64,000 nucleotides of DNA from Candidatus Peribacteria bacterium. Lineage in GTDB: Bacteria; Patescibacteriota; Gracilibacteria; Peribacterales; Peribacteraceae. The stretch lies in NCBI GenBank assembly GCA_943357915.1, contig CALRGQ010000001.1, positions 70,816-134,815 on the forward strand, in the 5' to 3' direction. Below, one piece after another: positions 18,875 through 24,807 of the stretch; position 1 is the first letter of the stretch, and the number at the start of each line of letters is the position of its first letter. The position numbers and the translations under genes were made by a program. The notes under the pieces were generated by a model, which was not told the origin of the DNA, ran no database searches, and saw only the letters and a program-made list of their open reading frames with translations.

Positions 18875-19471
18875 GTGTCTCTTCTCCCTCCGCAAATCCA
18901 AAAGGCCATCGAGGAGTTTAGTAAACTCCCGGGCATCGGCCCCAAGTCCGCAGAACGGATGACGTTTCATTTACTGCGGTCCAGTAAAGCGACGCCGGAA
19001 GGCCTAGGGAATGCACTGATCGCACTGAAGCGTGATCTGAAGTATTGCAAAACATGTCAGATGATTTCTCTGAACGAAGAATGTTCGATTTGTGGTGACA
19101 GATCTCGTGATGCAACGCAGATTTTGGTCGTCGAGGAACCACTGGAAGTCGTCGCGTTTGAGAAAGCTGGATACAAAGGTCTGTATCACGTGCTGCATGG
19201 CGTGCTCTCACCGATTGATGGCATGGGACCTGAGCAGCTGAAGCTTAAAGAGTTGGTCGAGCGTTGCAAAACCGGCGAGATCGCAGAAGTTATCGTGGCG
19301 ACGAACTTAGATACCGAAGGTGAAGCCACAGCGGCGTACATTAAGCAGCAAGTAACGCCGAATGTGCAGAAAATTACTCGGCTCGCGCACGGTCTTCCTA
19401 TGGGTGCAGACATTGAGTTCGCGGATCAGGTCACGCTCAGAGAGGCGATTGCGGGGCGGAGGAGTGCTTAG
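18875..19471 (+). CDS. recR: Recombination protein RecR
   Basis: FSKLPGIGPKSAERMTFHLL, zinc-finger CKTC..CSIC, Toprim VVEEP, TRLAHGLPMGADIEFADQVTL; GTG start. Confidence 0.96.
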   Translation: MSLLPPQIQKAIEEFSKLPGIGPKSAERMTFHLLRSSKATPEGLGNALIALKRDLKYCKTCQMISLNEECSICGDRSRDATQILVVEEPLEVVAFEKAGYKGLYHVLHGVLSPIDGMGPEQLKLKELVERCKTGEIAEVIVATNLDTEGEATAAYIKQQVTPNVQKITRLAHGLPMGADIEFADQVTLREAIAGRRSA

Positions 19472-20406
19472 AGTTTTTCCTGTACGAGCTTGATCGCATC
19501 ACCGATTCTTGGTTCACCGAGTGATCGCCAGCCAGATGAGGCCATACGTTCGTGTGCCGTCTGATCTGGTACCCACTTCACCACAACGTCGATGCCTCCG
19601 CCGTTTTGGTAGATACTAGAAACGCCGGGGTTTGCTTCGCCGAGAGACTGGGCGATTTCGAGCGGACCCGTCGGATGTGCGTGACCGTTGTGAGTGAGAA
19701 GCAGGTGCACACAGTTACGGCTATTGCCGGATTGTGATGCGATGCGGGCGATCTGTTCCCACTGTGACTCCGCGTTGTCGACACGCGTGATGACGTTACC
19801 GAAACGGTCAACGTACGCGACATGCCAGTCTGTGCGTGGATCGGGAATGTCCGAGATATTTGCATCCCGGAGCTCGAGCTTGTGATTGGGATTGAGAAGC
19901 CGAGGAGTAAGGCGGGAACGGAATTGTTCACGGCCGGTGTAAAGACCATTGAAGCCAGTGGGGTCGCTTGGGTTATCGAGATATTGAAGAGTTTCGATGT
20001 CGCCTTTGATCGCAGAAAGCCCTGAGAGAGGCGTCGAGACAATGTGGATATTTCCTTCTCTTGCAGTTGCGAGATAGAAAGGCTGGGCGTTGTTGCGTGC
20101 CACGCGTGGCGCGCTGTTGATGAAAACACCTGTACCACCTTTTATCGCAAAGTCGCGTTCTTCGTCAGACAAGTCTACGCGCCTCATCAGTTCGTCATGT
20201 TGTGAAACAACGAGTCTTAAAATGTGATCGGCGAGCGCTTCCTGGCCGAAAATGTCGAACTCGCGGTGAATGCGGTCTGTCGGTCGTCCGCCGAAATCGG
20301 TTGAGATCAAGACATCGGAATCTGGCTGTGTCAGGGGATTCGGTGGATCTTCCGGGCCTCCGTAGGTATCGGAGAGATAATAGGTGCGGAGAGGAGCATT
20401 TTGCAT
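19468..20406 (-). CDS. S-adenosylmethionine hydrolase/hydroxide adenosyltransferase-like (DUF62) protein
   Basis: VLISTDFGG N-terminal block and AYVDRFGNVITRVDN C-terminal block; convergent with recR, stop codons overlap. Confidence 0.55.
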   Translation of the reverse strand: MQNAPLRTYYLSDTYGGPEDPPNPLTQPDSDVLISTDFGGRPTDRIHREFDIFGQEALADHILRLVVSQHDELMRRVDLSDEERDFAIKGGTGVFINSAPRVARNNAQPFYLATAREGNIHIVSTPLSGLSAIKGDIETLQYLDNPSDPTGFNGLYTGREQFRSRLTPRLLNPNHKLELRDANISDIPDPRTDWHVAYVDRFGNVITRVDNAESQWEQIARIASQSGNSRNCVHLLLTHNGHAHPTGPLEIAQSLGEANPGVSSIYQNGGGIDVVVKWVPDQTAHERMASSGWRSLGEPRIGDAIKLVQEKL

Positions 20407-20464
20407 GGTGGAAGTGGGAATTAGAGATGAGAAAGTGATATACGATCATAAGAAAAGTTCTCGC

Positions 20465-20481
20465 GATCTGCGCGAGTGGTG
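20465..20481 (-). promoter_or_regulatory. Hairpin following Met leader copy 1 (CTCGCG-cagat-CGCGAG, then AACTTTTCTT)
   Basis: Perfect 6-bp stem followed by T-rich stretch on minus strand; conserved downstream of copy 2. Confidence 0.45.
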
Positions 20482-20496
20482 AGCTTGGTCGCGTGC

Positions 20497-20568
20497 TTAC
20501 GCGATCAGCGACCCCCGCGCGAGGCGCATCATGTCCATCATCATGCCGCTGGTGCGTAGGGTGCTCAT
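20497..20568 (-). CDS. Met-rich candidate leader peptide, copy 1 (MSTLRTSGMMMDMMRLARGSLIA)
   Basis: 24-codon ORF ~90 bp upstream of the SAM hydrolase-like gene; close homolog at 24613-24687. Confidence 0.55.
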   Translation of the reverse strand: MSTLRTSGMMMDMMRLARGSLIA

Positions 20569-20675
20569 GCGCGCGCAGTATGGCGAAACCATAAAACACG
20601 TCAATCTTTCATGATAGGAAGATCGGTTTTTAGCTAGAGGATGAGCAAAAATCGTGCATCGACGACGGACGATAT

Positions 20676-20705
20676 CGCAGCGGAAGATCGCGATCTTCCG
20701 CTGCG
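20676..20705. repeat. Perfect 30-bp palindrome CGCAGCGGAAGATCG/CGATCTTCCGCTGCG
   Basis: 15-bp arms with no spacer, just downstream of the truncated SIMPL gene. Confidence 0.85.
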
Positions 20706-20721
20706 TGTGCGTGTGCTTTTT

Positions 20722-20973
20722 TTAGCGTAGTTCATACGAAATCGTCACATTCGACACGATTTCCTGCTCTCCGGCGGGAATTGGCATACTTTCCTGCGCG
20801 ACTGCATTACCCATATCGTAGTTTGCCTTCGTCAGCATTGGCGTCGGATAACCGTAGGCGCCATCTTCACTGAAGGCGGTCATGCGGCCGAGTGACATGC
20901 CAAGATTTTTTGCGAGCACTTCTGCTTTCGCTTTCGCCTTCTCGATTGCGATCTCACGAGCCTGCGCCTTCAT
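20722..20973 (-). pseudogene. Truncated SIMPL (DUF541) domain gene, C-terminal 83 aa only
   Basis: 79/83 aa identical to the C-terminus of the full-length SIMPL gene at 24856-25611. Confidence 0.85.
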
Positions 20974-22169: not shown

Positions 22170-22703
22170 TCATGTACTGAAAATATCGTTGGCAATCGTG
22201 ACGAGTTCCTCACGATCAACTTCGTCGAAAGCCTCAGTGAATTCGCTGTCTACATCGAGCACAGCGATCAGGTTCTTTTGCCGGTCAAATATCGGTACAA
22301 CGATCTCAGACTGAGACCTGCTATCACATGCGATATGACCGGGGAATTTTTGCACGCTGGGGACGATGATTGGCTTTTGTGAACGGGCACACGCCCCACA
22401 AACGCCACGATTGAAGTGGATACGCAGGCAGCCGAGAGTTCCCTGGTAGGGCCCTACGACGAGTTCGTCGCCTTTCGTTGGGTCTACTTGATAGAATCCC
22501 GTCCAGAAGAAATAAGGCAGGTGATGAGCGAGGATGCCAGTCACTGTCGCCATACGTGCAATGACATCGCTTTCTCCCTCCAGGACTGCGGAAGCAGTCT
22601 TTCGGGCTTGAAGGTAGATCGCCCGCTTTTCTGTTGCTGAAAGCAAGCGATGAGTCTGTTCATGAGGAAGCTGGTCGTTGATGGTGCTTGTAAGAGAAGA
22701 CAT
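22170..22703 (-). CDS. msrC: Free methionine-(R)-sulfoxide reductase (GAF domain)
   Basis: YFFWTGFYQVDPTKGDELVVGPYQG, GVCGACARSQKPIIVPSVQKFPGHIACDSRSQSEIVVPI. Confidence 0.92.
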   Translation of the reverse strand: MSSLTSTINDQLPHEQTHRLLSATEKRAIYLQARKTASAVLEGESDVIARMATVTGILAHHLPYFFWTGFYQVDPTKGDELVVGPYQGTLGCLRIHFNRGVCGACARSQKPIIVPSVQKFPGHIACDSRSQSEIVVPIFDRQKNLIAVLDVDSEFTEAFDEVDREELVTIANDIFST

Positions 22704-22732: not shown

Positions 22733-24073
22733 TTACTTCAATCTGGTTTCTAAAATATGTTTAATAAGTGCTGGGCCAGTAACTTCTCCAAATGCATTGA
22801 ATGCAACGAGGGGTGCCCCGCCTTTTTCTGGAGCATGTGCCAAACCATTTGCATACACTCCAGGTATTACTGTGTCATTAAAGCCAATTACTTGGCCGTT
22901 GTCTGTTACACAAACAGCCTGTCGTCTCTCAGAAAGCTTTGGACCAAGTGGCATTCCACTTGAATCGTCTATTCTTACATAACTTGCCGGATATCCAGTT
23001 GCCACAATAATTATTTGTGCATTTTGATATTCTTCTTTGGCTTCAGATAAATGTTCAACTTGTTGGCTTGTAATCCTTTTCTCGTTTCCGGAGGTTGCCG
23101 CAAGAATGAGATCACGTGCTACATTGCGAATACCCTTCCAACGATGAACTGCAGGATGGTTAGGATCATTGTCTATGTCTCTCCGAGAGAAGTTTGTATA
23201 GCCTGCTAGCTCTGCTTCCTGCGAATTGGGGAAATATAGATATATTGGGCTACGGTGCACTATATGTGAGCCTCCTTCGGCAATATCAATTCCTTGCTGT
23301 TGAGCATGCTCAATTAATGCATAATTCCCTGAGCCTACGCTATAGGAACTCCCAACCCACACGACACCTCCTTTTTTTTGTGCTGCTAGAGCCACCTTAT
23401 GTAATTGGTGTATGTCTGAATGAACTGAGTCAGCAGTTATTATTTTTGCCTGAAAAGAATGTAATTCAGGTGGAATAGGCTGAGACTTGCCACCAGTTGC
23501 AAGAATAACATTTGTAGTAGAAAGTGCTGGCTCATTTTTGTCAGTATAAACATTCCAATCACCTCGGAAACACTGCTCAACAGTGTCAACAGTTTTATTT
23601 GGGAAGAAGTCACAGGAATGTATTCCCTTTAATACTTGATGAATTTTATCTCCTAAAGCATCTAAAAGATCTGCGATAGGTCCGAATCTAAGTACATCAT
23701 TTTCTGCAGCCACCTTCTTAGCTTCTGGTAAGCCTTGGAGGTCACCGAATACCTCATTTTGAGGTAGCCAATTTGTCCAGTCTGGACCTGGCGAATTACT
23801 TAAAAATGGTACATTTTCAAAATTTCTAAGAGATCCACTACCAATGCAATCTGATTGAGTTACCACCGCGATGCCACTACTTTCTTGATTATTTGATTCT
23901 ACTACTCTTCTAAATGCTGCTTTACCTTTATTAGCTAGCGCTAAGATAGTAGCTAAAGCTCCAGGCCCTCCTCCTGCAAGGAGGATACTATATTTTTTCT
24001 CACTTTCTTGTCGTGCGACTTCATCTCTCAGAAAACGATGGCCTGCCGATGGTGTAAGAGATTTTTTTTTCAC
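22733..24073 (-). CDS. FAD/NAD(P)-binding oxidoreductase-like protein
   Basis: YSILLAGGGPGALATILALA dinucleotide motif; IIVATGYPASY; C-terminal GVYANGLAHAPEKGGAPLVAFNAFGEV. Confidence 0.75.
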   Translation of the reverse strand: MKKKSLTPSAGHRFLRDEVARQESEKKYSILLAGGGPGALATILALANKGKAAFRRVVESNNQESSGIAVVTQSDCIGSGSLRNFENVPFLSNSPGPDWTNWLPQNEVFGDLQGLPEAKKVAAENDVLRFGPIADLLDALGDKIHQVLKGIHSCDFFPNKTVDTVEQCFRGDWNVYTDKNEPALSTTNVILATGGKSQPIPPELHSFQAKIITADSVHSDIHQLHKVALAAQKKGGVVWVGSSYSVGSGNYALIEHAQQQGIDIAEGGSHIVHRSPIYLYFPNSQEAELAGYTNFSRRDIDNDPNHPAVHRWKGIRNVARDLILAATSGNEKRITSQQVEHLSEAKEEYQNAQIIIVATGYPASYVRIDDSSGMPLGPKLSERRQAVCVTDNGQVIGFNDTVIPGVYANGLAHAPEKGGAPLVAFNAFGEVTGPALIKHILETRLK

Positions 24074-24107: not shown

Positions 24108-24362
24108 TCAGTTTTTCCTGCGGAGCACATTTGCTATTGCGCTGCCTGCACAGTGGACTTGCTCCAAGCATTCGAGAAAAACCGCATCAGGTATCTCCTG
24201 TTCTCCTTGTTCAAGAGAGCGCTTTGCTCCTTGCCGCGCATCGATCCAAATTTTTCTTAGTTCGTCTTTTGTAAGGTTGGGACCTTCGAGAGCGAGTTCT
24301 TCGACAGACACAAGTTCCAACTTATCTGCTAATGGTTGCGTTGAGGGTTGAGTAGTAGCCAT
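24108..24362 (-). CDS. Small hypothetical protein (84 aa)
   Basis: MATTQPSTQPLADKLELVSVEELALEGPNLTKDELRKIWIDARQGAKRS...; first gene of the msrC operon; longer called start overlaps the candidate attenuator. Confidence 0.5.
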   Translation of the reverse strand: MATTQPSTQPLADKLELVSVEELALEGPNLTKDELRKIWIDARQGAKRSLEQGEQEIPDAVFLECLEQVHCAGSAIANVLRRKN

Positions 24363-24391: not shown

Positions 24392-24424
24392 AAAAAACAC
24401 CTCCGCGTGTAGTCCCGCGGGGTG
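24392..24424 (-). terminator. Intrinsic terminator upstream of the small gene/FAD/msrC operon
   Basis: Minus strand CACC-CCGCG-ggactaca-CGCGG-a-GGTG-TTTTTT. Confidence 0.7.
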
Positions 24425-24468
24425 AGTCATGAGTCTTATTTCTCTCATGCCTTCGTCTCCCGCGGGAC
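24412..24468 (-). promoter_or_regulatory. Candidate antiterminator: GTCCCGCGGG (24459-24468) pairs with CCCGCGGGAC (24412-24421)
   Basis: Perfect 10-bp complementarity that overlaps the 5' arm of the terminator. Confidence 0.55.
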
Positions 24469-24540
24469 ACGCATGCACATACACATCATCGCCATAACGC
24501 GATTTGTGATGAGGCCGGAGGAGAAGGAGTGGTGGTTCAT
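24445..24540 (-). CDS. Met/Cys-rich candidate leader peptide (MNHHSFSSGLITNRVMAMMCMCMRVPRETKA)
   Basis: 32-codon ORF with ATG-GCG-ATG-ATG-TGT-ATG-TGC-ATG just 5' of the antiterminator strand. Confidence 0.55.
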   Translation of the reverse strand: MNHHSFSSGLITNRVMAMMCMCMRVPRETKA

Positions 24541-24612
24541 GGGATCAGAATATTTTCATTGATACGGAAAAGTGCCCCGCGATCTGCGCGAGTGGTGATG
24601 GTGTGCGATTCT

Positions 24613-24687
24613 TTACGCAGCAACCAACCCTCGCGCTAGGCGCATCATCATGCTCATCATCATGGTGGTGGGTCGGAGAGTTGTCAT
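24613..24687 (-). CDS. Met-rich candidate leader peptide, copy 2 (MTTLRPTTMMMSMMMRLARGLVAA)
   Basis: 25-codon ORF; homolog of 20497-20568 including trailing CACCACTCGCGCAGATCGCG hairpin. Confidence 0.5.
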   Translation of the reverse strand: MTTLRPTTMMMSMMMRLARGLVAA

Positions 24688-24807
24688 GTGCGCATATTTA
24701 AATGCCATATCGTATTTTTGTCGAGAGTTTTGGAGCATTGTTTCTATACATGGCTTATGGATGCGGGAAAATAGTGGTGGTTGTTTACTTGACACGTCAC
24801 CTTTCCA

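Follow-up and report, generated by a model that had tools for sequence, protein, structure and literature searches.

Does the methionine-rich open reading frame (ORF) upstream of a SAM hydrolase-like gene in this genome encode a regulatory leader, and, if so, what would it sense? The question arose from one locus on the minus strand of a 64-kb window, the term we use for the whole stretch of DNA analyzed. The initial annotation described a Met-rich 23-aa ORF and a hairpin about 90 bp upstream of the gene and proposed that the pair acts by attenuation through charged tRNA-Met. We refer to this element as W1.

Anatomy of the W1 locus

The W1 leader ORF (MSTLRTSGMMMDMMRLARGSLIA, 20497..20568, minus strand) runs from an ATG at 20568 to a TAA at 20499-20497, and its conservation is apparent from the covariance model described below. 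Its regulatory Met codons, ATGATGATGGACATGATG, occupy 20527..20544 (minus strand), and this Met run is conserved in about 59 leaders. The predicted antiterminator segment, GCGCGGGGGTCG (20509..20520, minus strand), lies within the leader in its Ala-Arg-Gly codons and pairs with the 5′ arm of the terminator (duplex -16.0 kcal/mol). The predicted intrinsic terminator, CTCGCG-CAGAT-CGCGAG followed by AACTTTTCTT, spans 20450..20476 (minus strand), with the arms and loop at 20476-20460 and AACTTTTCTT at 20459-20450. As a caveat, its stem is short (6 bp, -7.5 kcal/mol) and its T tract is interrupted. The regulated gene starts at 20406, about 90 nt 3′ of the leader stop codon. The ORF, the hairpin sequence and the spacing are thus as initially annotated, and the element is larger than first described, reaching upstream to a predicted sigma70-type promoter, TTGACG-N16-CATACT (20577..20604, minus strand). 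The -10 box ends 8 nt 5′ of the leader ATG, and a leaderless transcript is predicted.

Between the W1 promoter and a SIMPL-domain ORF lies a long near-perfect inverted repeat (CAGCGGAAGATCGCGATCTTCCGCTG, window 20673-20707) beside an A/T run, which is probably a terminator isolating W1. Of the 205 positions of its profile, the SIMPL (DUF541) ORF itself (window 20722-20973) covers just the C-terminal 80, and it appears truncated or frameshifted.

Taken alone, the W1 hairpin is unremarkable: a scan for terminator-like sites found 1 against 2.3 expected, and folding of the whole leader gave z = -1.3. Runs of at least five Met per six codons occur in the window only in the W1 leader and in a second copy, W2, and in none of 30 dinucleotide shuffles of the window. 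It is conservation, not the local hairpin score, that makes W1 more than chance.

The gene downstream of W1

The regulated gene (19468..20406, minus strand) encodes a 312-aa protein, P0002, which we describe as a divergent SAM hydrolase (SAM hydroxide adenosyltransferase-like). The initial annotation had called it DUF62/SAM-hydrolase-like, a label that holds for the fold and not for family membership as scored by Pfam. The only Pfam hit was SAM_HAT_C at 18.6 bits, below the cut-off of 25.5, and the curated Pfam score for both SAM_HAT_N and SAM_HAT_C was not met. An AlphaFold2 model built from 18 window and locus homologs reached a pLDDT of 89.7, and all 38 of its 38 PDB matches at E<0.001 were SAM hydrolases (DUF62), chlorinases or fluorinases. 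Judged by this predicted structure, P0002 has the SAM-hydrolase (SAM_HAT) fold and is a divergent DUF62 relative that we do not class as a bona fide member. Release of methionine from SAM (SAM -> Met + adenosine) is the parsimonious activity, and it is inferred only. A scan for the downstream protein in GTDB genome contigs found nothing.

The N-domain of S-adenosylmethionine synthetase was not found in this genome and is present in 61 of 72 family genomes. As the assembly is 97% complete, absence of the enzyme is not proven.

A second copy precedes a putative methionine sulfoxide salvage operon

W2 came out of a DNA search at 72% identity; it lies in the same genome, 4 kb from W1 (window 24568-24724, minus strand). 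Its promoter-like sequence, TCGACA...TTAAAT (24696..24724, minus strand), is inferred from the consensus only. The W2 leader ORF (MTTLRPTTMMMSMMMRLARGLVAA, 24613..24687, minus strand) has its Met run at 24663-24643 and an antiterminator segment, GCGCGAGGG, at 24636-24628 (duplex -16.9 kcal/mol); the leader is followed by CTCGCGCAGATCGCGGGG and TTTT. The predicted terminator, CTCGCG-CAGAT-CGCGGGG and CACTTTTCC, spans 24566..24592 (minus strand). Next comes a tandem second leader rich in Met and Cys (MNHHSFSSGLITNRVMAMMCMCMRVPRETKA, 24445..24540, minus strand; E=8.6e-4), with a terminator on its 3′ side, CCGCGGGACTACACGCGG followed by AGGTGTTTTTT (24392..24420, minus strand; -8.5 kcal/mol). At loci L018, L023, L079 and L081, too, a second leader of the Met (or Met/Cys) type, complete with a terminator of its own, stands in tandem between the first attenuator and the gene.

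The W2 operon begins with an 84-aa protein without a family match (ATG at 24362; 24108..24362, minus strand). The second gene encodes a flavin oxidoreductase-like protein (22733..24073, minus strand) with relatives 3′ of Met leaders in L081 and L125, and the third a GAF-domain protein of the free methionine-(R)-sulfoxide reductase type (22170..22703, minus strand), whose closest solved relatives include methionine-R-sulfoxide reductase and YebR.

Distribution of the element

Orthologs of the P0002 gene in three other genera (L008, L009, L010) each have their own Met leader and hairpin. Six relatives in a different neighborhood (L002-L007, mostly behind a gatA-like gene, as judged by eye) have no Met leader or hairpin.

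With few input sequences MAFFT placed the hairpins wrongly, so we first built a two-sequence covariance model and then refined it with 16 sequences. The two-sequence model recovered the element across the family, in many genera. Among the 75 genomes of the family, the 16-sequence model detected it at E<1e-6 in 35, with roughly half lacking a strong match; the refined model also recovered it from other families of the class (Ca. Peribacteria) and from a few genomes elsewhere in the phylum (Patescibacteria). When 85,488 species were scanned with an exact pattern, 17 loci matched. Fifteen of them belong to Peribacteria/Peregrinibacteria or unplaced Patescibacteria; the other two, in Nocardia and Polyangia, are consistent with a chance expectation that we estimate ourselves at about 4. 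A search of plasmids returned none. Matches with implausible leaders (e.g., L117, L124, L126, L127, L131, L133, L134, L135) were excluded from the statistics as chance or plain terminators. One partial model match in the W1 genome (G000:C33) has no leader and is merely the terminator at the end of a gene.

As predicted from sequence, the recurrent anatomy is a sigma70-type promoter, a leaderless ORF with a Met run and then an Arg-Gly stretch that can pair with the 5′ terminator arm, a stop codon, a terminator and a T run. Conservation of the leader ORF is highest at the end that carries the Met run. A lack of homologs outside this locus would have counted against the initial annotation. Such homologs are present, with the Met run and the downstream hairpin conserved and with the same or functionally equivalent neighboring genes.

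Leader segments are predicted to pair with the 5′ arm of their own terminators

After removal of implausible matches, 68 elements were kept; a script detected the stem and T run in 67 of them, and those of W2 were identified by eye. Leaders paired with their own 5′ terminator arm at a mean of -16.2 kcal/mol, compared to -12.3 kcal/mol with the 5′ arms of other loci, and none of 10,000 permutations reached the own-arm value. Shuffled leaders averaged -9.7 kcal/mol against the 5′ arm. This swap test was not corrected for kinship of the loci. In 66 of the 68 elements, the pairing of the leader with its own arm surpasses that of the best spacer window. Nearly all elements have, in the final codons of the leader, a segment complementary to the 5′ arm, and this complementarity between the 3′ part of the leader and the 5′ arm is locus-specific.

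In W1, the conserved competitor for the 5′ arm CTCGCG is the leader segment GCGCGGGG. The initial annotation had instead suggested that a CTCGCG in the leader competes for the 3′ arm, CGCGAG. W1 could form such a pairing, but W2, which has CTAGCG at that position, could not and retains the 5′-arm pairing; the conserved partner is the 5′ arm.

A median of 6 nt separates the last Met codon from the start of the antiterminator, and a further 10 nt lie between its end and the stop codon; in both W1 and W2 these distances are 5 nt and 11 nt. With this placement, a ribosome stalled early in the Met run would leave the antiterminator free, and a ribosome at the stop codon would cover it.

Transcripts probably begin at the leader start codon

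A -35/-10 pair scoring at least 9 of 12 precedes 82% of the elements, compared to 9.9% of shuffles, and in 40 of 58 elements a gap of 6-9 nt separates the -10 box from the first in-frame start codon. Given so short a distance, transcripts probably begin at the leader start codon; both the promoter and leaderless translation are inferences. A 5′ end at the leader start codon has been reported for Sinorhizobium meliloti trpL (PMC7298713) and for Streptomyces lividans leaders (PMC8079986).

Leader codons match the downstream pathway

Among 57 loci with Met-run leaders, 38 precede genes of a recognized class: SAM_HAT or SAM_HAT-like genes (21), homocysteine S-methyltransferases (9), MetA or MetB/MetY (3), a flavoprotein (3) and SAM-dependent methyltransferases (2). 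A Met-sulfoxide-reductase-type GAF gene is also present in L125 and in the window. Most of these recognized activities would yield methionine. The remaining 19 loci comprise 6 in which the next gene is hisS or codes for a 65-72-aa protein and 13 whose downstream product has no known function. We note that the models contain Met codons, so that the Met run in the matches is partly selected for; the function of the downstream gene is independent of the model.

Two further proteins recur in these neighborhoods. A protein of 65-100 aa starting with MV(N/V)LL or similar is found behind Met leaders in L026, L061, L065, L070, L072, L080 and L096, in several cases directly before hisS. A Pro-rich protein (MADQPTPPPPPRPGDPVP..GGLDPTQVFASPP..) recurs beside attenuated genes in the family (L015, L016, L020, L024, L072, L077, L082, L084, L097 and others).

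The same architecture carries other codons before other genes. Leaders of the KKTTKM type (Lys/Thr/Met) precede aspartate kinase at L107, L113 and L114, which suggests that one leader reads several end products of the aspartate pathway. Lys/Thr/Met-rich leaders (e.g., MQHCSSMKKTTKMTSLPGKDGC) were observed at these three loci and also at L102 and L105. Tandem Ile/Thr/Lys leaders precede aspartate kinase at L129:524-751, and an Ile leader (MMYQSIISSIIILALGVRR) precedes an isopropylmalate/citramalate-synthase-like gene at L110:653-741. At L029:761-863 (genome G078), the architecture is kept without a Met run (MSFSFSLVVRLMKRLARGKVAP); this leader may sense another amino acid or be decayed.

By comparison of sequences alone, then, we could establish a conserved anatomy, locus-specific complementarity and a leader amino acid that matches the downstream pathway.

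Proposed mechanism and alternatives

We are confident, short of certainty, that the element is a ribosome-mediated transcription attenuator sensing charged tRNA-Met. It combines a pathway-matched codon cluster, a predicted intrinsic terminator between leader and gene, and a mutually exclusive antiterminator positioned so that the ribosome would choose between the two. The attenuation proposed in the initial annotation is supported and passed those refutation tests that could be run. Against it stand the weak W1 terminator, the 19 loci whose next gene has no recognized link to methionine, and the family genomes without a strong match. Stalling and termination are inferred, in the absence of transcript, ribosome-profiling or reporter data, as are the promoter, leaderless translation and the enzyme activities.

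In this model, RNA polymerase would start at or beside the leader start codon, and translation would begin without a Shine-Dalgarno region. When Met-tRNA is scarce, the ribosome would stall in the Met run and leave the following Ala/Arg-Gly codons (GCGNGGGG) free. The freed GCGNGGGG could then pair with the 5′ arm, (C)CTCGC, blocking the terminator and allowing transcription of the methionine-generating gene. W1 would control the SAM hydrolase-like enzyme, and W2 with its tandem second leader would control the operon that includes the putative free-Met-sulfoxide reductase.

We considered whether the stall might instead reflect sequence-specific arrest by the nascent peptide, as in TnaC, in which the leader peptide, perhaps with ribosome-bound Met or SAM, stalls translation and exposes the antiterminator. 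The motif Met-x-MMM-R/H-S/L-x-RG is fairly conserved in the family, but the residues before, within and after the Met run vary (the spacer being D, S, Q, G, H, L or A), and the antiterminator already accounts for the conserved RG codons. Moreover, codon-limited stalling, unlike peptide-specific arrest, predicts that the same architecture should carry Lys/Thr/Met or Ile codons where aspartate kinase or isopropylmalate/citramalate synthase follows, as it does. We regard peptide arrest as improbable.

Less probable still is that the product of the ORF is a small Met-rich protein with a function of its own, such as metal binding, and that the hairpin is the ordinary terminator of that gene. Short Met-rich and Met/Cys-rich peptides can bind Cu(I), but neither the N-terminal half nor the length of the leader is conserved, the downstream genes are largely methionine-producing rather than metal-related, and the complementarity between leader and arm is specific to each locus.

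Elsewhere, such genes are targets of SAM riboswitches and Met T-boxes, and the ORF could be incidental to a metabolite riboswitch or T-box of this kind. Rfam 15 scans of the window and the leader yielded nothing in the leader that reached the gathering score, nor any weaker match of relevance, and we rejected a SAM riboswitch or T-box for want of an Rfam covariance-model match. The alternative hairpin is the only conserved RNA feature, and conservation of the ORF peaks at its Met-run end, which leaves this explanation very little room. A chance low-complexity ORF beside an ordinary hairpin, for which it can be said that the single hairpin is not statistically unusual, is hardly credible when the same anatomy recurs in dozens of genomes and shuffled windows lack comparable Met runs.

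Attenuation by charged tRNA-Met may also be part of a wider strategy. We lean somewhat toward the view that much of the Peribacteria class and parts of Patescibacteria control amino-acid supply mainly by leaderless-ORF attenuators, not by riboswitches or repressors. This would include a Met regulon that unites biosynthesis with SAM hydrolysis and the salvage of Met sulfoxide, the tandem Met attenuators, and the Lys/Thr/Met leaders, on which a single ribosome could monitor several aspartate-pathway products. The element offers an RNA handle on methionine sensing in small-genome, uncultured bacteria and implies tight transcription-translation coupling with leaderless starts in the Peribacteria lineage. 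Membership in the regulon also predicts functions for unknown families, namely the divergent SAM hydrolases, the flavoprotein before the Met-sulfoxide reductase and the 65-72 aa proteins.

Comparison with known systems

An actinobacterial survey found no methionine attenuators (PMC1262725), and a genome-wide terminator survey placed leader-peptide systems in Proteobacteria, Actinobacteria and some Firmicutes (PMC2965389). A text search of a survey of how Proteobacteria regulate methionine gave no mention of attenuation (PMC4239095). Searches across 5.4 million open papers brought up no methionine attenuator built on a terminator/antiterminator switch, and nothing relevant on amino-acid attenuators or leader peptides in candidate-phyla bacteria, Patescibacteria or Peribacteria. 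Priority remains uncertain, as most subscription papers and all bioRxiv preprints lay outside the search.

The only Met leader in the literature searched is the predicted metL of S. lividans (MSTTSDRTPATEATTTPGARCMCRRMCAF, upstream of metNIQ), likewise proposed to be a Met-dependent, leaderless leader peptide before a methionine gene (PMC8079986). It differs in having only two internal Met codons, no recognizable Rho-independent terminator and no reported conserved antiterminator (PMC8079986), in preceding a transporter rather than biosynthesis or salvage genes, and in its unrelated sequence. In S. meliloti trpL/peTrpL, too, the attenuator RNA begins at the ATG of its leader, a leaderless small ORF (PMC7298713), but the codons are for Trp, the operon is trp and the host belongs to Alphaproteobacteria. 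SAM-I/II riboswitches and Met T-boxes also exert cis-RNA control of methionine genes, partly by premature termination, but they sense SAM or bind tRNA directly, without translation.

With the trp/his/thr/ilv attenuators of Proteobacteria (modeled in PMC1183508), the Peribacteria element shares three features: regulatory codons, within a leader ORF, for the amino acid of the pathway; competition between segment II and a III:IV terminator for segment III; and the masking of segment II by a ribosome terminating at the stop codon. Unlike them, it reads Met, has segment II inside the leader coding sequence, lacks an evident 1:2 pause hairpin, is predicted to start leaderless and resides in a Peribacteria/Patescibacteria host.
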